From: Microcaldota archaeon
Lineage (GTDB): Archaea; Micrarchaeota; Micrarchaeia; Norongarragalinales; Norongarragalinaceae
Direction: 5' to 3'
Assembly: GCA_016212375.1 (NCBI GenBank)
Contig: JACRGH010000052.1
Span: forward strand, 1 to 59,325
DNA length: 59,325 bases
Shown here: positions 33,468 to 59,325 of the stretch, in pieces
Layout: the number at the start of each line of letters is the position of its first letter
Position numbering within the stretch: the stretch's first letter is position 1
Notes under the pieces: model-generated
The model's database searches: none
What the model was told of the DNA's origin: nothing
Seen by the model: only the letters and a program-made list of their open reading frames with translations
Made by a program: the position numbers and the translations under genes

Positions 33468-33980
33468 TCAATAAACGCTCATCTTTTTGACGCACGACAA
33501 TCCTGACAATTCGCCCAACACTTTCACCGGCGGTTTGCGCTGCAGAACGATGAACAGTTTGGGTGATTCGAACAACTCCGGATCCTGCGACAAAATCTGC
33601 CGGATGGCCACTTTATGGTCGGCCAAAAGGGCGGTGATCTCCGCCACCACTCCGCATTTGGACGCTACAGATGCGGGCGGCTCCAATTCCAACACCGTCA
33701 GACCCAACGCGGCGGCATTCTGTACGAATAAGGGCCCGGCCGGCTGGAGGCTTTCAAAGACCGGCCTCAGGAAAGCATCGGACTCAATCCGAACCACGGT
33801 GGCTGCAACAACGCGCCGGTCCACGCCGCAGCTTTGGGCCAACGACACGTCCTTGACTTCAACGCCGCCAGAATTGATGGACCCATTTCGCACCGAAAGG
33901 CCCAAGGCCAACATTTTTTCAGCGACAGATCGTTGAGCGGGAAAATCCGCGAACGACGCCCGAACACGCTCCAGAATCAT
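33468..33980 (-). CDS. Predicted amino acid metabolism regulator with C-terminal ACT domain
   Basis: MILERVRASFADFPAQRSVAEKMLALGLSVRNG...LEPPASVASKCGVVAEITALLADHKVAIRQIL; divergent from trpE. Confidence 0.78.
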   Translation of the reverse strand: MILERVRASFADFPAQRSVAEKMLALGLSVRNGSINSGGVEVKDVSLAQSCGVDRRVVAATVVRIESDAFLRPVFESLQPAGPLFVQNAAALGLTVLELEPPASVASKCGVVAEITALLADHKVAIRQILSQDPELFESPKLFIVLQRKPPVKVLGELSGLSCVKKMSVY

Positions 33981-34192
33981 GATGAACAATAATGTACAAC
34001 ATAGATATAAATAGTACGTCGGCCCCAAGGGACGAAGCAAGATAAGCGTAACGGGGCAGAAGTCGAAAGCGTCGGAAAAATAAGACGAAAAAGACACGAC
34101 GAAAAGCAATAGAAAATATCAATACGAGGATATGACGATGGAAAGCGGAGAGGGTTTTCTTTGGCCTGCGACACGACTTCCAGTCCCAACCC

Positions 34193-38134: not shown

Positions 38135-39343
38135 ATGACATATTTTGGAGAATTTGGCGGACTGTTTGTTCCGGAAACACTGGTCAGCCCGCTTCAAGCG
38201 ATTTCAGAGGCGTACGAAAATGCCAAAAAAGATCCGGCGTTCCAAAGTGAGTTCCAACGGCTTTTACGCGAGTACGCGGGACGGCCGTCCATGCTGTACT
38301 TTGCAAAAAACCTATCCGTTAAGTACGGCTGCCGCATCTACCTCAAACGGGAGGACTTGCTGCACACCGGCTCGCACAAAATCAACAACGCGTTGGGACA
38401 GGCCTTGCTTGCCAAATCCATGGGCAAAACGCGCGTCATCGCGGAAACCGGTGCGGGACAGCATGGCGTGGCGTGCGCCACGGTCTGCGCCCTGATGGGT
38501 TTGAAATGCGTCGTGTACATGGGCTCGGAAGACGTCATCCGCCAAAACTTGAACGTCCAGCGGATGCGCCTATTGGGCGCCACCGTGGTGCCGGTCGAAT
38601 CCGGAACCAAAACCTTGAAAGATGCCATCAACGAAGCCCTCCGGGACTTCGTGGCGAATCCCGACAGCTATTACCTCATCGGCTCAGCCGTGGGCCCGAC
38701 GCCGTATCCGGAAATGGTGCGGGATTTCCAGCGGGCCATCGGCGATGAGACCAAAGCCCAAATCCTCAAAGCCGAAGGGCGGCTTCCGGACGCCGTGGTG
38801 GCCTGCGTGGGCGGGGGCAGCAATGCGATAGGCATGTTTTATTCGTTCAAAGACGACCAAAGCGTCAAAAAAATCGGCGTGGAAGCATATGGCGCGGCAT
38901 CGTTGGGTTACGGCCAGACGGGCGTGCTGCACGGTGCGAAAACCAAAATTTTGCAGGACAGCGACGGACAAATTTCCGGCACGCACAGTATTTCGGCCGG
39001 ACTGGATTATTCCGCCGTGGGGCCGGAGCATGCTTTTTTCCAATCGGCTGGAATCGCGAAATACGTTTCCGCCAACGACGAGGACGCGCTTTTCGGCTTC
39101 AAGGAACTTTCCCTACAAGAAGGCATCATTCCGGCACTGGAATCGGCACACGCCGTGGCCCATGGCCTCAAAGTGGCCAAAACCATGACCAAAGACCAGA
39201 TTCTCGTCATCAATTTGTCCGGACGCGGAGACAAAGATGCGCATGCATTGGAAGCTCTTGGAAAAGAAAAAGAGCCGTCGGCGTGGGGAAAAAATGAAAT
39301 AACCAAAATAAATGCCAAAACAACGGAGGCGAACAATCAATGA
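38135..39343 (+). CDS. trpB: Tryptophan synthase beta chain
   Basis: [43 protein letters not shown]. Confidence 0.96.
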
Positions 39344-40116
39344 AATTCTCCGAACTTTTCAAAACCAAAAAATTTGCCTTCCTACCATACGTTTGCTTAG
39401 GTTACCCCACACTCGAAAAAAGCCTGGACCTAGTGCGGGCCTTGGAACCGTACGCGGATGGCTTTGAGCTCGGTATCCCTTTTTCCGATCCGGTGGCCGA
39501 CGGACCCGTTCTGCAGAAAGCCGCCCAGAGTGCCCTAGAGGCCGGTTTTAAAGTCAGCCAGACGTTTGACGCGGTGCGGGTGGTCCGCCGGTTCACGCAA
39601 AAACCAATCGCCATCATGACGTACTTGAATCCGGTTTTGGCCCACGGATTACAGCGTTTCGTTGACGAGGCGCATGCCACGGGAGCCGATGCGCTCATCA
39701 TACCGGATGCGCCGATGGAAGAAATCGGACCGGTCCAGGCCGCGTGTGCCGGAAAACTGGAAGTGCCGTTATTTGTCACCCCCACCACGCCGAAAGCGCG
39801 CGCCGGGAAAATCGCCCAAAGCGCACAAGGATTCATCTACGGCATTGCAATCAAAGGCGTCACAGGCGCACGCAAAGAAACCGAAATGGACGGCATGGGT
39901 GCCGACGTCAAGGCATTGGTGGAAAAAACGTCCGACATGGGTTTCCAGATTCCGGTGGTCTTTGGTTTCGGGATTTCAAACGCAAAGCATGCAAAAGCGG
40001 TCCAAAACGCCGGAGCCGCCGGTTTCATCATCGGTAGCCGCATCGTCCAGGCCTACGAGGAAGACGGATTGGAGGGCGTGAAAACATGGGTACAATCGCT
40101 AACCTTAAAAACGTGA
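39340..40116 (+). CDS. trpA: Tryptophan synthase alpha chain
   Basis: [33 protein letters not shown]. Confidence 0.94.
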
Positions 40117-40162
40117 ACCGGGAAGTAATTGAAAAGACAACGAAATCAGCGAGTTAGTTCCC

Positions 40163-40228
40163 ATGAACCAACGCAAAAACCAATGGTCGTATCCGACGTT
40201 TGGCTTTAGCTTTGGCTATTACCAATAA
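40163..40228 (+). CDS. Candidate aromatic leader peptide MNQRKNQWSYPTFGFSFGYYQ
   Basis: 21 codons with 1 W, 3 Y, 3 F, located between trpA and the DAHP synthase gene; below the length cutoff of the ORF track. Confidence 0.55.
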   Translation: MNQRKNQWSYPTFGFSFGYYQ

Positions 40229-40230
40229 TC

Positions 40231-40321
40231 TTGGGAAAAACCCGCGCAAACTGAAAAAAAGTGTATCAATCGGTTTCAATCTTCGGTTTGCAGCCGCCAG
40301 GCCATTGCGGGTTTCTTCCAA
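40231..40321 (+). promoter_or_regulatory. Candidate leader RNA structure following the aromatic micro-ORF
   Basis: 40231-40245 pairs with 40307-40321 (15 positions, 1 mismatch, 1 GU), enclosing 40246-40255/40282-40291 (10 bp, 1 GU); CCGC at 40294-40297 can compete for GCGG 40307-40310. Confidence 0.5.
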
Positions 40322-40440
40322 AAACAGCAAAGAAATAAGACCAACGGAAAAAATGGGAAAAAAGCAGAAACCATATTGAAAACATCAAAATAAGAGTACA
40401 AAAACTAAAAAAATAATCCGAACGAACAGGTGTTACGACT

Positions 40441-41454
40441 ATGATCATCGTCTTTGAACCGTCCGCGAAACACGAACAAATCCAGCACGTCTTTGACCGC
40501 CTTATCGAATGGGGTTTCAACCCGGTACTTCAAGAAGGGGAAGCCACCAGCATCGCGATTACCGGAGACACGTCCTCGCTGAAGTCCGAGACGCTAGAGG
40601 CCTTTGACGGAGTCCAAAAGGCCGTCCGCCTGACCCAGCCGTACAAACTGGTGGCCCGTGAGTTCAAACCCGAAGGCACCATTATCGACATCGACGGCGT
40701 CAAAATCGGCGGAAAACATTTCACCATGATTGCCGGCCCCTGCAGTGCGGAAAGCGAAGCCCAACTTCTGACCACGGCTCACGCGGTTAAGAACGCGGGC
40801 GGCAAAATCCTGCGCGCCGGCATCTACAAACCCCGCACATCCCCCTACGAATTCCAAGGCATCGGCGAAAAAGGATTGCCCTGGCTAAAAAAAGCAAAAG
40901 AGCAGACGGGATTACCGGTGTGCACAGAAGTGATGGACCCAAAAGTTCTGGACAAAGTCAAGGACGTCGTGGACATCTACCAAGTCGGTGCGCGCAACAT
41001 GCAAAATTATGATTTGTTGCGGGAATTGGGCAAGTCCAAAAAACCGGTATTGCTCAAACGGGGCCTTTCCGCCACGCTCAAGGAATTGTTGTTGGCCGCG
41101 GAATACATCATGTCCTCCGGCAACCATGACGTGATGTTGTGCGAGCGGGGCATCCGCACGTACGAAACGGCCACCCGCTTCACCTTGGACGTCGGCGCCG
41201 TTCCCGTGCTCCGCCACGACACGCACCTGCCCATTATCGTGGACCCATCCCACCCCGCCGGCAAGCGGGCATTGGTCGGGGCATTGGCCAAAGCGGGCTT
41301 GGCAGCGGGTGCCGATGGGCTCATCGTGGAAACGCATCCAGATCCGGAGCGTGCTTGGTCCGACGCGGCGCAACAATTGACGTTCGACCAATTCGGACAA
41401 CTGATGACCGAACTTCGGCCCATTGCCACAGCCGTGGGACGGACGATGGATTGA
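40441..41454 (+). CDS. 3-deoxy-7-phosphoheptulonate (DAHP) synthase with N-terminal regulatory domain
   Basis: MIAGPCSAESEAQLLTTA, GIYKPRTSPYEFQG, PIIVDPSHPAGKR; SD AGGTG upstream. Confidence 0.95.
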   Translation: MIIVFEPSAKHEQIQHVFDRLIEWGFNPVLQEGEATSIAITGDTSSLKSETLEAFDGVQKAVRLTQPYKLVAREFKPEGTIIDIDGVKIGGKHFTMIAGPCSAESEAQLLTTAHAVKNAGGKILRAGIYKPRTSPYEFQGIGEKGLPWLKKAKEQTGLPVCTEVMDPKVLDKVKDVVDIYQVGARNMQNYDLLRELGKSKKPVLLKRGLSATLKELLLAAEYIMSSGNHDVMLCERGIRTYETATRFTLDVGAVPVLRHDTHLPIIVDPSHPAGKRALVGALAKAGLAAGADGLIVETHPDPERAWSDAAQQLTFDQFGQLMTELRPIATAVGRTMD

Positions 41455-41580
41455 TATCACAGCTAAAAAAATGAGAAAAAAGGGGCAATGAAAAAACAAA
41501 AAAAAGGAAGATCGGAAAACCAAATTGGAAAATAAAAAAACGAATGGAAAAAAAACTTGAAAAAAGGATTGAAATCAACC

Positions 41581-42648
41581 ATGACGCATGCATCGGGCCT
41601 TTTGTTGGATTTGGGGCAATATCCCGTTTTATTGGGACGCGGCACCTTGAAGGCCTGTGGCACGCACGCACCCATTTGCAGCCGCGCATTCATCATCCAC
41701 CAAGCTGCATCGAAAAAATACGCGCAAACAGTGGCGGAAAGCCTCGACGAACGAAAGACGGACTTAGCATTGGTGGAAGTGCCCGACGGAGAAAAAGCCA
41801 AAGAGCTGGACCAGGTCGAAGTCTTGTACGAAAAAGCCCTTGATGCCAAACTGGAGCGGACAGACGCGGTGTTCGCCGTGGGCGGAGGGTGCGTGGGCGA
41901 TGCGGCCGGATTCTTTGCAGCCACCTACCTTAGGGGCTTGCAGTTGGTCCATGTGCCTACGACGTTATTGGCGCAAGTGGATTCCAGCATCGGCGGCAAA
42001 GTGGGCGTCAATCTGGGCGCTACCAAGAACATGGTGGGCAGTTTTTACCAACCCGAACTGGTCGTGGATGACATCGACGCGCTGCAAAGCCTACCACCCA
42101 TGCAAATCAGCAACGGATTGGCCGAAGTCATCAAATACGGCCTGATCCGGGATTCCGATTTTCTCAGGTATTTGGAAAAAAACATGGACGCAGTCCAGGC
42201 CAAAGACCCCGGCGCCCTTTTGCACGTGGTCCAGCAAAGCGTCCAGCACAAAGGGACGGTAGTGGCGCAGGACGAGCGTGAAGCGGGTAGCCGGATGACG
42301 CTCAATTACGGACACACTTTGGGCCATGGCATTGAAACGGTTTGCGGACTGCCGCACGGTTTTGCCATTGCCATAGGGATGCATGCGGCCGGGATTTTGG
42401 CCGTTGAAAAAGGCCTGCTTGAAAAACAAGACCTCGAAAGGCAAAATGACTTAATCCAAGCCGCCGGATTGGCCCTGGTCGCAAAAACGAAAGCAGACGC
42501 GGAAGGCATCATGGAAAAAGTACGCAACGACAAAAAGCGCACGGCAGGGAAACTCCGGATGGTACTGTTGGACAAAATCGGCAACTGCCGCATCGTTGAA
42601 GTCACTGAAAAGGACGCGCAATTTGCGTTGGAGCAGGTGTTGGAATGA
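41581..42648 (+). CDS. aroB: 3-dehydroquinate synthase
   Basis: AVGGGCVGDAAGFFAATYLRGLQLVHVPTTLLAQVDSSIGGKVGVN. Confidence 0.95.
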   Translation: MTHASGLLLDLGQYPVLLGRGTLKACGTHAPICSRAFIIHQAASKKYAQTVAESLDERKTDLALVEVPDGEKAKELDQVEVLYEKALDAKLERTDAVFAVGGGCVGDAAGFFAATYLRGLQLVHVPTTLLAQVDSSIGGKVGVNLGATKNMVGSFYQPELVVDDIDALQSLPPMQISNGLAEVIKYGLIRDSDFLRYLEKNMDAVQAKDPGALLHVVQQSVQHKGTVVAQDEREAGSRMTLNYGHTLGHGIETVCGLPHGFAIAIGMHAAGILAVEKGLLEKQDLERQNDLIQAAGLALVAKTKADAEGIMEKVRNDKKRTAGKLRMVLLDKIGNCRIVEVTEKDAQFALEQVLE

Positions 42649-43385
42649 ACGCATCCCGAAATAATCCGGAATCCAAAAGCAGCGCGCCGTCCGCGATAAT
42701 CATCGTACCCATTGTCGCCAAAACAATCGACGGGGCAAAAGTCCAAATACACGCAAGTACGGGCGACATCGTGGAACTTCGAATGGATGCATTGGACTCC
42801 ATGGAAAACGTCTCGACGGAGCAATTGCAGGAACTGGTCGCGATGGGAAAAATCATCATGACGGACCGGCGGGCCTACGAAGGCGGCCACAAAGCGCAGA
42901 CGGACACCCAGCGCTTTGACGACATCCATCGTGCCATTGAAGCCAAACCTTGGGCGGTGGACATCGAAATCCAATCACCCCGCCTGTTCCGTCGGAAGCT
43001 CATCAAGTTGGCAAATCAAAACGGCGTGAAAGTCATCTCGTCATACCACAACTTTAAACGCACCCCGCCCTTTGACAAATTGGCGGAAATGGCCAAGGAG
43101 GCGCTTGGAGAATCGGATTACGCCAAAATCGTGTGTTTGCCTGAAAACGACGGTGACATCACGGCGCTGTTGGATTTGGTCCGCCAGCACCCGGGCCGCG
43201 TGGCGGCATTCGGATTGGGCGACAAACCGGCGCAGTCGCACACCCGTATCCTCTCGCTGAAATTGGGCGCGCCCTTTGGCTACGCCCGCGGCCACCAACC
43301 GACCGCACCGGGCCAGATGACCGTAGAAGAAATGAGAAAACAACTCGCCGGAATGCAATTTGCCAAAAAAGACGACAAAAAATGA
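42645..43385 (+). CDS. aroD: 3-dehydroquinate dehydratase type I
   Basis: VELRMDALDSM, VKVISSYHNFKRTPP. Confidence 0.93.
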   Translation: MNASRNNPESKSSAPSAIIIVPIVAKTIDGAKVQIHASTGDIVELRMDALDSMENVSTEQLQELVAMGKIIMTDRRAYEGGHKAQTDTQRFDDIHRAIEAKPWAVDIEIQSPRLFRRKLIKLANQNGVKVISSYHNFKRTPPFDKLAEMAKEALGESDYAKIVCLPENDGDITALLDLVRQHPGRVAAFGLGDKPAQSHTRILSLKLGAPFGYARGHQPTAPGQMTVEEMRKQLAGMQFAKKDDKK

Positions 43386-43502
43386 GAACCTGAGAAAAGG
43401 AAAGCGTTGAAAAAATTAAAACGGAAAAAAAGATGAATCCTAAAAAAAAACGAAAAAAAAAGATTCGAGAAATAAAAAATCCGACGAAGAACGAAAACCG
43501 CC

Positions 43503-44405
43503 ATGACTTGGATAAAGACTAACACGGGCCACGCCATGATTACCGCCAAAACCCATATCGTCGCGCTCATCGGCGAGCCGGTCAAACACAGCCTTTCACC
43601 CGCCATGCATAACGCGGCATTTGCCCAACTGGGTTTGGATTGGGCCTACGTGGCGCTTTCCGTCAAAACCCAAAACTTGGCGCAAGCGGTTGCCGGAATG
43701 AAAGCCCTGAACTTCCAAGGGTTCAACGCCACCATGCCGCACAAGCAAGCATTGGTGCATTTGGTCGATGAGTTGGACCCGTTTGCCAAGTTCTGCCAAG
43801 CGGTCAACACCGTATCCGTCCGCAACGGCAAGCTGTTGGGGTTCAACACCGACGGGCCGGGAACGCTCAACGCACTCAAAGAAGCCAAAGCGGACCTAAG
43901 CCACGTCGTCATCCTGGGCGCGGGTGGCACCGGCTCGGCCATGGCCCTGGCATTGGCGCAGGCCGGCTCCGAGGTCGTCATCCTGAACCGAGACGTGAAA
44001 AAAGCCGAGGGCTTGGCCCACAAAATTGGAAAGACCGGTGACGTTTTGATCGAAGCGGGAAGCCTGGATGAAGCCGCCGACCGCATCCGTGAAGCGACAG
44101 TGTTGTGCAACGCCACGTCCGTTGGCATGCGAACCAACGAAACGCCCATTTCCAAAAATGCGTTGCATCCCGGATTGACCATAATGGACGCCGTGTATGC
44201 ACCGCGCCTTACGCGCCTCATCAAAGACGCAAAAGGCGTGGGCGCCCACGTCGTCACCGGAGACCGCATGTTGTTGCACCAGGGCATGATTGCATTTGAG
44301 CGCTGGACCGGCGGCAAGGCGCCAAAAACGGCGATGGAAAACGCGCTTGAACATGCATTCAGCATCTTGGAAACAAACGGTCAGAACGGTTCGGTGAACA
44401 CATGA
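43503..44405 (+). CDS. aroE: Shikimate dehydrogenase
   Basis: LIGEPVKHSLSPAMHNAAF, GFNATMPHKQ, GAGGTGSAMALAL. Confidence 0.95.
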   Translation: MTWIKTNTGHAMITAKTHIVALIGEPVKHSLSPAMHNAAFAQLGLDWAYVALSVKTQNLAQAVAGMKALNFQGFNATMPHKQALVHLVDELDPFAKFCQAVNTVSVRNGKLLGFNTDGPGTLNALKEAKADLSHVVILGAGGTGSAMALALAQAGSEVVILNRDVKKAEGLAHKIGKTGDVLIEAGSLDEAADRIREATVLCNATSVGMRTNETPISKNALHPGLTIMDAVYAPRLTRLIKDAKGVGAHVVTGDRMLLHQGMIAFERWTGGKAPKTAMENALEHAFSILETNGQNGSVNT

Positions 44406-46255
44406 ACATCCTTTTGATCGGCATCATGGGCTCCGGCAAGACCACCGTAGGATATGCATTGGCCGAAAGCCGGCAGATGGCGTTCGTGGATCTGGACCGC
44501 GAATTGGAAAACGTGGAAGGCCGGACCATTTCCGAAATTTTCAAAACCGACGGCGAGGATGCGTTCCGTGAAAAAGAATCGGCGTTGCTTCTGAAGTGGG
44601 CGGAACAACAGTTGGACAACACGGTCATTTCCACTGGCGGAGGCATCGTTCTAAGCGAGGTCAACCTCCAGCTGATTAAGAAAATGGGCCGGACGGTATG
44701 GCTGGACGTATCCGCGGAAGTGGCCCACCAGCGCACGCAACACGAACCAAACCGCCCCCTGCTCAATCATCCGGAGCGCGCCGAAATCCTGAGGGTCCTG
44801 ATACGGCGGCGAAGAGAATTGTATGAACAGGCTGAAGTGCACGTCCAAGTGGACGATAAATCCGTGGACAAAATCGTGGATGAAATCAACGACCGCCTGA
44901 GGCAAACCGCCAAATCCGCGCTTCGGAGCCGGGTCTTATCCGCCATCGGCCAACTGGAAGGCAAGTCCATGCGGATTGAACCATCAGCCCTTCAAGGGTC
45001 GCTCAAAGTCCCGCCGTCCAAAAGCATGACACACCGTGCCCTGATTTGCGCGGCGCTTTCCAAAAAGCCGTGCCGCGTGAGCAATGCATTGGTCTCCGAT
45101 GACACCTTGGCCACGGCCAGTGCGCTCAAAGTCTTGGGCACACGATTTGAAGGCGACGTGCTTGACGGAACCGAAATTTTCACCATCGGAGGAACGCTGT
45201 CCTGTGGCGAATCCGGCTCCACCCTGCGATTCATGCTTCCATTGGCATGCCTCGGACAGACACGAAACGTCCTGATGGGCCACGGACGCTTATTGCAAAG
45301 GCCCATCCAGCCGCTGGCCGATGCGTTGAACCAATTGGGCGGCCACGTGGAAACGGCGGAAGGACTGGCGCCGGTCAACACCACCCCCGGCTTAAGCGGT
45401 AGCACATGCACCCTACCCGGAAACATCAGCTCGCAATTCGTGTCCGGCCTTTTGATGGCCTTGCCGTTGTGTCCAAAGCCGAGCCAAATCCAGTTGGAAG
45501 GATCGTTGGAATCGGCGCCGTATGTGGACGTGACGTTGGACGTGATGGCGCACTTCGGCGTTCACGTGGATGTCCAACGCAATGAACACCAACAAATGAC
45601 CGGTTTTTCCATTGCCCCCCAATCGTATCAACCCCACGACATCACCGTGCCGTCGGATTGGTCCAGCGCCGCCTTTTGGCTCGTGGCCGGATGCATCGGG
45701 AATCACAAAGAGGGAACCTCAAAAAGGTCAGGTGGTTCAAACGGCATCACCATTGAATCTATCCAGCCGGACCGCCAAGCAGATGCCGCGATTGTGCCGA
45801 TATTGCAGAAAATGGGGGGAAAAATAACCATCCAAAGCCAGAGCAAAACCGTGCGGGCGCACGCCTCCGACTTGGTTGGAATTGACATCGACGTCTCGGA
45901 TTGCCCGGATTTGGTGCCCATTTTGGCGGTAGCCGGCTGCTTTGCTGCAGGCATCACACGATTGACCAATGCAGCCCGACTGCGATTGAAAGAAAGCGAC
46001 CGCCTGTCCGCGATGGCAACCGAGTTGCAAAAAATGGGAGCCCGTATCGAGGAAAAGCCCGATGCGCTCATTATCCATCAAAGCGCGCTTTCCGGCGCCA
46101 CCTTATCCAGTCACAACGACCACCGCATCGCCATGGCATTGAGTATTGCCGCAACAAATGCCACCGGCCAGTCGGTCATCGACAACGCGGACTGCGTCGC
46201 GAAATCCTATCCGGCGTTTTTCAACGATTTGCAAGTCCTGGGGGAAAAGACATGA
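44402..46255 (+). CDS. aroK-aroA: Fused shikimate kinase (P-loop AroK type) - EPSP synthase
   Basis: N-terminal LIGIMGSGKTTVGYALA...ISTGGG kinase; C-terminal LKVPPSKSMTHRALICAALS...ESGSTLRFMLPLA...SDWSSAAFWLVAG...LRLKESDRLSAMA EPSPS; one uninterrupted 617-aa ORF. Confidence 0.95.
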   Translation: MNILLIGIMGSGKTTVGYALAESRQMAFVDLDRELENVEGRTISEIFKTDGEDAFREKESALLLKWAEQQLDNTVISTGGGIVLSEVNLQLIKKMGRTVWLDVSAEVAHQRTQHEPNRPLLNHPERAEILRVLIRRRRELYEQAEVHVQVDDKSVDKIVDEINDRLRQTAKSALRSRVLSAIGQLEGKSMRIEPSALQGSLKVPPSKSMTHRALICAALSKKPCRVSNALVSDDTLATASALKVLGTRFEGDVLDGTEIFTIGGTLSCGESGSTLRFMLPLACLGQTRNVLMGHGRLLQRPIQPLADALNQLGGHVETAEGLAPVNTTPGLSGSTCTLPGNISSQFVSGLLMALPLCPKPSQIQLEGSLESAPYVDVTLDVMAHFGVHVDVQRNEHQQMTGFSIAPQSYQPHDITVPSDWSSAAFWLVAGCIGNHKEGTSKRSGGSNGITIESIQPDRQADAAIVPILQKMGGKITIQSQSKTVRAHASDLVGIDIDVSDCPDLVPILAVAGCFAAGITRLTNAARLRLKESDRLSAMATELQKMGARIEEKPDALIIHQSALSGATLSSHNDHRIAMALSIAATNATGQSVIDNADCVAKSYPAFFNDLQVLGEKT

Positions 46256-47364
46256 ACCAACATTACGGAAAACTGTTTGAAGTGCAGATTGCCGGCGAAT
46301 CCCACGGACACGGCGTCGGATGCATCATCCAAGGCTGCCCCGCGGGACTTTCCTTAAACGAAAGTGACATCCAAATCGAATTGGACAAGCGCAAGCCGGG
46401 CCAGAAACTCACAACCGCGCGCACCGAGGCCGACCGAATCCACATCAAGACCGGCGTGTTCAACGGCAAAACCACGGGCGCACCCATTTTGTTGTGGATG
46501 GACAACACCGACACCCGGTCCGCCGACTACGAAGCGCTGCAGGCCACCCCGCGGCCCGGACATGCGGATGTCACGGCGGCTGAGAAGTACGGAGGATTCA
46601 ACGATTACCGCGGTTCCGGTCCGTTTTCGGCCCGCCTCACGGCGCCCTTAGTTGCAACGGGAGCCATAGCTCGAAAACTGTTGCAACAACACGGCGTGGA
46701 AATCCTTGGCCACGTCCAGCAATTAGGCGGACTTAAAATCGAAAACGCCTCCGACACGGCCATCCGCACCAACGTTGCCAACAGCCCCCTGCGGTGCGCG
46801 GATGCCAAAATGGAAAAACGCTTCGAAGCCGCGCTTCAGGACGCACTCAAAGCCGGCGACTCCCTTGGGGCGGTCATAGAATGCCGCGTCAGAGGCCTTC
46901 CGATGGGCGTGGGTGAGCCCCGCGCGCAATCGGTGGAAAGTGCCATCGGGGCCATTTGTTTGGGCATTCCAGCGGCTAAAGGCGTGGAGTTCGGCGAAGG
47001 CTTTGCCGCGGCGGCGATGAAAGGAAGCCAGCACAACGACGCATTTGAAAAAGTCGGAACCGGCGAATCAAACAAAGACCACGTAACCATCCGCACCAAA
47101 ACGAACCACTCCGGCGGCACGCTGGGCGGCATAACCACAGGAATGCCATTGATTTTCCGCGTGGTATTCAAACCCACGTCCAGCATCGCCAAAACCCAAA
47201 CAACGCTCAACGTCAAGACCGGCAAGCAATCCGAAATGTCAGTCATTGGCCGACATGACCCGTGCGTCGCGCTTCGAGCCGTGCCCATCGTCGAAGCGGC
47301 TGCGGCGTTGGCGTTGGTTGATTTGATGTTGCAGGCACAAAAAATTCAAAGGGTGCTAAAGTAA
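46252..47364 (+). CDS. aroC: Chorismate synthase
   Basis: GESHGHGVGCIIQGCPAGL, RPGHADVTAAEKYGGFNDYRGSGPFSAR, VIGRHDPCVALRAVP. Confidence 0.95.
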   Translation: MNQHYGKLFEVQIAGESHGHGVGCIIQGCPAGLSLNESDIQIELDKRKPGQKLTTARTEADRIHIKTGVFNGKTTGAPILLWMDNTDTRSADYEALQATPRPGHADVTAAEKYGGFNDYRGSGPFSARLTAPLVATGAIARKLLQQHGVEILGHVQQLGGLKIENASDTAIRTNVANSPLRCADAKMEKRFEAALQDALKAGDSLGAVIECRVRGLPMGVGEPRAQSVESAIGAICLGIPAAKGVEFGEGFAAAAMKGSQHNDAFEKVGTGESNKDHVTIRTKTNHSGGTLGGITTGMPLIFRVVFKPTSSIAKTQTTLNVKTGKQSEMSVIGRHDPCVALRAVPIVEAAAALALVDLMLQAQKIQRVLK

Positions 47365-47365
47365 G

Positions 47366-48595
47366 ATGGCGGAAGCAAAAATGCCAAAGCAGGAAAAAAA
47401 GAAGGACAACAAAATGGAAAAAGTCGACAACGACGGCCTTGACGCCACGCGCCAGCAAATCGACTCCATTGATGAGCAAATCACCAAACTGTTAGCGCAA
47501 CGCATGGACCTGGCCATAAAGACACGCCGGGAAAAAGAACGCAGCGGAAAAAGCGTCGAAGACTCAAGCCGGGAAAAAAACGTATTACAACACGTGGAAG
47601 CCGTAGCGAAATCCGAAGGCCTGGACGGCGCCGTCGTATTGCGCGTGTTCGAGGAAATCATGGCCGCAAGCAAGTCGCAGCAAATCATGGACCACGCCCC
47701 CGCGCATGCCGCCACCAATCAGATGCAACCCAAAACCATCGCATTCCAAGGGGAGCGGGGCGCATACAGCGAAGAAGCCTTGAAAGCGGCGTGGCCGAAC
47801 GCGCAACCGGTGCCCTGCAAGGAATTCGCCGACGTATTCGAGGCGGTGCAATCCGGAACGGTGGACGCAGGCTTGGTGCCGATTGAAAACAGCACCGAAG
47901 GCAGCATCAACTGGACCTACGACTTGCTTCTCAACTCCCAACTCACTATTGCGGGAGAAAAATTCCTCCGGGTGCACCATTACTTATTGGCCCCCGCCGG
48001 CACTCAGCTCCAAGCCGGACTAAACGTCTACTCACACCCCCAAGCCTTGGCGCAATGCCGGGATTTTTTGCACGACAAAGGCCTGCAAGCGGTGCAATAC
48101 TATGACACGGCAGGTGCGGCTCGTGATTTGGCCCAAGGAAAAATCGAAACCACCACACCGACCGCGCAAGACAAAAACAAAGGACAAACCGGCGGTGCGC
48201 CATTTGCCGCGGCCATCGCCTCTCGCATTGCTGCCGAACACTACGGCTTAACCGTCATCGCCGAAGGCATCGAGGACAACCGCAACAACTACACTCGGTT
48301 CATCCTGATTTCAAAGACGGCCCCGACACCGCAGGCCGATTTCAAGACGTCCATCGTCTTTTCGACCCAGCACAAACCCGGCGCCCTTTTTCGCGTGCTG
48401 AAGGCATTCGCTGACGCCGGAATAAACCTCACAAAACTGGAATCCCGCCCGACCAAGTCCACGCCTTGGGAATACGTCTTCTACCTGGACTTTGAAGGTT
48501 CGGCGTTCCACGACCCCGCCCGCACGGTACTGGAACAAATCAAGCCGGACACCCTGATGCTCAAGGTGCTGGGAAGTTACCCGAAGGCGAAGTGA
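47366..48595 (+). CDS. pheA: Chorismate mutase - prephenate dehydratase - ACT fusion (P-protein)
   Basis: RQQIDSIDEQITKLLAQRMDLA; IAFQGERGAYSEEA...VPIENSTEGSI; HKPGALFRVLKAFADAGINLTKLESRPTK. Confidence 0.95.
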   Translation: MAEAKMPKQEKKKDNKMEKVDNDGLDATRQQIDSIDEQITKLLAQRMDLAIKTRREKERSGKSVEDSSREKNVLQHVEAVAKSEGLDGAVVLRVFEEIMAASKSQQIMDHAPAHAATNQMQPKTIAFQGERGAYSEEALKAAWPNAQPVPCKEFADVFEAVQSGTVDAGLVPIENSTEGSINWTYDLLLNSQLTIAGEKFLRVHHYLLAPAGTQLQAGLNVYSHPQALAQCRDFLHDKGLQAVQYYDTAGAARDLAQGKIETTTPTAQDKNKGQTGGAPFAAAIASRIAAEHYGLTVIAEGIEDNRNNYTRFILISKTAPTPQADFKTSIVFSTQHKPGALFRVLKAFADAGINLTKLESRPTKSTPWEYVFYLDFEGSAFHDPARTVLEQIKPDTLMLKVLGSYPKAK

Positions 48596-59197: not shown

Positions 59198-59324
59198 TTT
59201 TGTAGGTCGACCGAAAAGCGTAAGTTCTACTTTTTCGTACCTCTTTTGCTTGGGCGTCCCGACCAGGACGCCCCGCGCAAAAAAAGGCCCACCCGCCATG
59301 ACAGACGAAAAATACGTACGCGAG
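59183..59324. repeat. Terminal inverted repeat, right copy
   Basis: See 1-142; outward-facing ATG at 59298 (MTDEKYVRE...). Confidence 0.97.
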
Positions 59325-59325
59325 C

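Follow-up and report, generated by a model that had tools for sequence, protein, structure and literature searches.

The 21-residue open reading frame (ORF) between trpA and the DAHP synthase gene of a micrarchaeal contig probably encodes the leader peptide of a ribosome-mediated attenuator, which senses the supply of Phe-, Tyr- and Trp-tRNA and controls the DAHP synthase/shikimate operon. We put the probability of this reading at roughly 80%; that the ORF is translated, that ribosomes stall on it, and in which direction and at which level it exerts control are all inferred, without data from expression studies, Ribo-seq or mutants. Bacteria provide the textbook cases of leader-peptide attenuation, and we know of no archaeal one. 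An archaeal leader-peptide attenuator was likewise absent from the hits listed in searches of an open-access full-text library; subscription papers and preprints fall outside this coverage, hence priority is not proven.

The window, meaning the whole stretch of 59,325 nt that was analysed, is a single contig (G000:C36), and its named relatives are groundwater MAGs of Candidatus Micrarchaeota. Its two ends (1-110 and 59216-59325) form a near-identical inverted repeat of about 108 bp, offset by one base, which is probably a repeat at which the assembly stopped. An aromatic micro-ORF between trpA and DAHP synthase had been claimed in a preliminary description of this DNA, and it is real: seven of the 21 residues of MNQRKNQWSYPTFGFSFGYYQ (leader peptides are given here up to the stop codon) are Trp, Tyr or Phe, all three kinds are present, and both neighbouring genes are confirmed by NCBIfam models. 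The ORF is separated from trpA by 46 nt and from DAHP synthase by 212 nt. The features of the locus are as follows.

39340-40116, + strand: trpA, the last gene of the trp operon and upstream neighbour (NCBIfam TIGR00262 over cut-off)
40104-40111, + strand: TATA-like box CTTAAAAA, 59 nt 5' of the leader start (from sequence)
40149-40162, + strand: segment 1, GCGAGUUAGUUCCC, proposed antiterminator partner just 5' of the leader ATG (duplex with segment 2; family-wide peak of complementarity)
40163-40228, + strand: aromatic leader ORF (from sequence; conserved in relatives)
40231-40246, + strand: segment 2, 5' arm of the terminator-like hairpin, beginning 3 nt past the leader stop codon (duplexes)
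40306-40321, + strand: segment 3, 3' arm of the hairpin (duplex with segment 2)
40312-40317, + strand: short interrupted U-tract UUUCUU, within segment 3 (from sequence)
40428-40432, + strand: AGGTG, Shine-Dalgarno-like site of DAHP synthase, outside the hairpin (from sequence)
40441-41454, + strand: DAHP synthase, the first committed step of aromatic synthesis and presumed target (NCBIfam NF006421 and TIGR01361 over cut-off)
41557-48595, + strand: aroB, aroD, aroE (by sequence only), an aroK-aroA fusion, aroC and chorismate mutase-prephenate dehydratase, the remaining operon behind the leader

Beyond the shikimate operon lie genes for prephenate dehydrogenase and a W/Y-type tRNA synthetase. 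The leader itself lacks a Shine-Dalgarno sequence. Such an ORF arose in none of 100 dinucleotide shuffles of the region upstream of DAHP synthase, and is found upstream of two of 47 other genes in the window.

Similar leaders are widespread in front of DAHP synthase. A survey of the Micrarchaeota class took in 303 genomes, 52 of them with DAHP synthase, and 54 loci were examined; a short aromatic-rich leader precedes the gene at 34 of these and is kept in most DAHP-synthase-bearing families of the class, while in Woesearchaeota an aromatic leader was present at nine of ten loci (for example MMKRIENLMAQIGFAFYRLFSSFRYFFFYFKF). Both same-genus genomes carry it (G001, MTEVKANQQNWSFGFSFGYFG; G002, MNQARLNRTYRAFWFSFGYFG), as do a member of the same family (G008, MAGTEARWNFGYSFSFGY) and a representative of another family in the same order (G012, MASEPCSAAVTAQNSWRFGYFYFYFA), and further examples from the class include MKITEVAKTNVFSFGFFSFSYWY, MEKAKANRFNGFFRYFSFGYFYW and MERAKPKTINYFYYSRFFWFSFFYYYFRFFWF, the last with 18 of 32 residues aromatic. 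The order trpA, leader, DAHP synthase recurs in a distant family (G121). Two families (f15 and f11) have DAHP synthase with no leader at the loci examined. Leaders are 18-38 residues long, and their sequence outside the aromatic positions varies freely. Multiple origins are apparent in the DAHP synthase tree, a point that is unresolved, with several deep forks open.

Two loci have unusual arrangements. In G002 (L002/L016, G002:C14:40956-42718), two unlike DAHP synthases stand in tandem behind one leader, the first 55% and the second 81% identical to that of the window, and additional hairpin sequence separates the leader stop codon from the gene. In G156 (L033, G156:C42), an aromatic ORF lies at a DAHP synthase of a Bacillota clade, together with a strong CCUCAGGC/GCCUGGGG hairpin followed by U6; this leader was not relied on, given that the genome has 6% contamination and the locus is possibly a bacterial contaminant.

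The frequency of these ORFs was compared with chance using a blind criterion, namely 15-50 codons with an ATG or GTG start, at least six aromatic residues making up at least 28% of the ORF, and a position within 465 nt upstream of the gene. This was met at 26 of the 54 Micrarchaeota loci (1.2 expected from dinucleotide shuffles) and at nine of the ten in Woesearchaeota (0.5 expected from shuffles), compared with 0/30 control loci at hisG and 3/30 at trpE, where the sequences were unrelated. As no His-rich leader was found at any of 30 hisG loci, and no credible Trp-rich leader among 30 at trpE, there is no sign of the device at these two kinds of operon; the trp operon of the window also has no leader peptide. 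A divergent gene upstream of trpE in the window (33468-34109, - strand) has no Pfam match; its sequence suggests a resemblance to small ACT-type amino-acid regulators, and it may control the trp operon. TATA-like boxes occur upstream of 26 of 43 leaders, as against 6.7 in shuffles.

Phe, Trp and Tyr together comprise 32% of leader residues, compared with 5% in DAHP synthases, and exactly one Trp is present in 28 of 34 Micrarchaeota leaders. Across aligned leader pairs, an aromatic residue remains aromatic in 2924 of 4069 comparisons, whereas other residues are identical in 1344 of 7100; the corresponding values in the genus of the window are 16/20 and 12/40. Relatives without the ORF, or with its aromatic codons not kept, would have refuted the leader-peptide reading; the aromatics are kept while other positions drift. 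Judged by its substitutions, the ORF in one Woesearchaeota group is evolving as a protein, since dS is 0.90 and dN 0.10, with 125 of 226 differences at the third codon position. In the window's genus alone (three sequences), dS and dN hardly differ (0.52 and 0.47). Codon choice in the leaders runs against the bias of the DAHP synthase genes: Tyr is encoded by TAT 71 times and TAC 12 times, against 92 and 188 in the genes, and AGC makes up 64% of Ser codons, against 31%, which could reflect either wobble-decoded hungry codons or an RNA constraint.

RNA structure forms a second line of evidence. Across the 34 Micrarchaeota leaders, a strong ungapped helix starts at the leader stop codon, with a total score of z = 22 relative to shuffled downstream sequence and a 5' arm beginning between -24 and +18 of that codon. 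Gene ends do not share this feature in general, given a mean helix score of 28.5 at leaders against 18.9 at 43 ordinary stop codons of the window. The 5' arm has a second complementary region immediately before the leader ATG: a sliding 25-nt window gives a single peak at -20 to +4 of that codon (z = 9.7) and baseline values elsewhere. Exchanging segments between species lowers the pairing of segments 1 and 2 (p = 1e-4 for all loci and 4e-4 for a 25-locus subset; overall range 1e-4 to 5e-4), and pairs that have changed and still match are seen in G141 (GUGUGGUUU with AAACCACGC), G100 (CGUGAUUUU with AAAAUCGCG), G008 (GCGUGGUU with AACCGCGC), G137 (GUGUU with AACAC) and G001 (GCAAGGGUU with AACCCUUGC). 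About half of the loci show little or no segment 1 pairing. Duplex energies calculated with fixed borders were dropped in favour of helices anchored on the hairpin, because the former are blurred in those genomes where segment 2 lies inside the ORF.

The duplex of segments 1 and 2 in the window, between 40149-40162 and 40231-40245, spans 11 bp (-12.1 kcal/mol); that of segments 2 and 3, between 40231-40246 and 40306-40321, has -21.6 kcal/mol, and the whole hairpin -35.4 kcal/mol. As computed, not probed, these two structures cannot coexist. The preliminary description had recorded the absence of a U-tract terminator; the U-tract is weak, UUUCUU falling short of the U4-U7 runs of many relatives; the strong stem-loop after the stop codon and its competing partner before the start had been overlooked. 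The last aromatic codon starts a median of 6 nt 5' of the hairpin 5' arm, a distance from which it is inferred that a ribosome waiting there would cover the arm.

These observations suggest a mechanism in which three RNA segments would compete: segments 1 and 3 are alternative partners of segment 2, whose pairing with segment 3 gives the terminator-like hairpin. With an ample supply of Phe, Tyr and Trp, ribosomes would reach the stop codon and leave, while initiating ribosomes would cover segment 1, so that the hairpin forms and curtails downstream expression. A lack of charged aromatic tRNAs would instead stall the ribosome on the aromatic codons: with a stall further upstream, segment 1 would stay available for pairing with segment 2, whereas a stall near the end would cover segment 2 itself. 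Under starvation, either stall position would thus prevent the hairpin from forming, and the operon would be expressed. The leader-peptide interpretation already advanced in the preliminary description is supported by the conservation, coding selection (clearest in the one Woesearchaeota group) and aromatic enrichment of the ORF, and by the stop-codon hairpin, the position- and species-specific complementarity of segments 1 and 2 and the tie to the head of the pathway; tRNA sensing, stalling and an effect on expression remain inferences. The type of output is the least certain part of the mechanism.

It is conceivable, if not what we favour, that the leader is regulatory but that its output is not hairpin-driven intrinsic termination. 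It would then act on translation, on mRNA stability or on termination by FttA (aCPSF1), and the ribosome, whether stalled or finishing, would decide if the downstream RNA is exposed to the factor or if the DAHP synthase start is open. Reviews describe archaeal termination as driven by poly-U or by FttA/aCPSF1, with no need of hairpins for the intrinsic process (PMC7289017, PMC8116511). Bacterial-type terminators are not enriched in the window, its U-tract is weak and the Woesearchaeota leader hairpins have no clear U-tract, so that factor-dependent termination, mRNA decay and translational control all remain possible; in G091, moreover, the 3' arm leads directly into an AGGTG site before the gene. 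Against such an output, U-runs of four or longer occur within or directly behind the 3' arm in 21 of the 34 Micrarchaeota leaders, when 9.7 would be expected (the other 13 have runs of three or fewer), and the window hairpin ends about 107 nt 5' of the DAHP synthase Shine-Dalgarno site and therefore does not hide it.

Other explanations concern the ORF itself. That its conserved core, F-S-F-[SG]-Y, is a nascent-chain arrest peptide sensing free aromatic amino acid rather than hungry codons is unlikely, even though the likeness of the core between families exceeds what codon sensing alone would need and the skewed choice of Tyr and Ser codons could be read in the same way. Many leaders lack the core and are aromatic nonetheless, among them those of G012 (RFGYFYFYFA), G157 (18 of 32 residues aromatic), G091 (NYYFYYYF) and Woesearchaeota (FFFYFKF), which fits codon counting, and 29 of 43 leaders contain all three aromatic amino acids. 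There is very little to recommend a free-standing small protein located here by accident: a short conserved motif could be a protein feature, but the length and non-aromatic sequence are free to vary, in several genomes the last codons of the ORF also serve as the 5' arm of the hairpin (QENHE or PENR followed by the stop codon), and the ORF is bound to the head of the pathway operon. Least credible is chance, or an untranslated U-rich RNA or DNA element, despite the U-richness of Phe codons and the conservation of the nucleotide string TTTAGCTTTGGCTAT itself in the genus, as such ORFs are rare in shuffles and at other genes, the excess of dS over dN in the one Woesearchaeota group indicates coding, and conservation extends from the Phe codons to those for Trp and Tyr.

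A leader has also been found in front of a different set of enzymes. Searching with the core pattern identified the aromatic leader MRNAKVCISGNSFFFSFSYY in G070, a Micrarchaeota genome without a match in the DAHP synthase searches. The pattern alone is not diagnostic, since five of its ten matches are not recognised leaders and a reversed control pattern matches about equally often; a DNA pattern joining the core to segment 2 was too strict. The G070 leader has a TATA-like box and a hairpin just past its stop codon, and its segment 1, GUGUUGG, is complementary to CCAGCAC right after that codon (p = 0.065 against shuffled segment 1). It lies 117 nt upstream of a complete alternative shikimate operon (L222, G070:C33:2000-13000) comprising aspartate kinase, aspartate-semialdehyde dehydrogenase (Asd), ADTH synthase (TIGR01949 over cut-off) and DHQ synthase II, then aroD, an aroE-aroK fusion, an aroA-aroC fusion and prephenate dehydratase (pheA). 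The archaeal alternative entry to the shikimate pathway starts from aspartate semialdehyde. DHQ synthase II is present in only six of 299 genomes of the class, and no leader was seen in the regions examined in the other five, some of which are cut by contig ends. Since the operon in G070 belongs to a non-homologous pathway, the leader seems, on this one case, to follow the pathway and not the gene, marking the head of aromatic synthesis regardless of the enzymes that carry it out.

The proposed attenuator resembles the bacterial trpL, pheL and hisL systems in having a short ORF rich in the end product at the head of a biosynthetic operon, overlapped by mutually exclusive RNA structures of which one is terminator-like. 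It differs in its archaeal host, in combining all three aromatic amino acids in one leader before DAHP synthase, in having three segments rather than four, with the antiterminator partner 5' of the start codon, and in having no Rfam match and a U-tract that some family members have only in weak form or not at all. Rfam searches of 39900-40600 with E up to 10 gave no meaningful match, including to Trp, Phe or His leaders and T-boxes, and loci from six relatives likewise had no match, T-boxes included. T-box riboswitches share the sensing of tRNA charging and the switch between terminator and antiterminator that are proposed here, but the leader would sense through a translated ORF. TrpY-type repressors represent transcription-factor control of aromatic genes in archaea; these are proteins acting on DNA, whereas the leader would regulate aromatic genes through a cis-acting ORF and RNA structure. 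Archaeal riboswitches and ribosomal-protein leaders are also 5' regulatory RNAs, and to our knowledge none has a translated sensor ORF.

On balance, it appears that two DPANN lineages use ribosome-mediated attenuation for aromatic amino acids, although this broader proposition is held with only moderate conviction. The switch would combine a hairpin-dependent stop signal with an antiterminator next to the start codon, and would stand ahead of two non-homologous entries to the pathway (DAHP synthase, and aspartate kinase-ADTH synthase-DHQ synthase II). If true, such a stop signal would conflict with the idea that hairpins play no part in archaeal termination. Attenuation of this kind would imply that transcription and translation are functionally coupled in DPANN archaea and that the output responds to a hairpin. 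It would also mean that an amino-acid sensor of uncultured archaea can be read from sequence, and would open the role of RNA hairpins in archaeal termination to direct tests.
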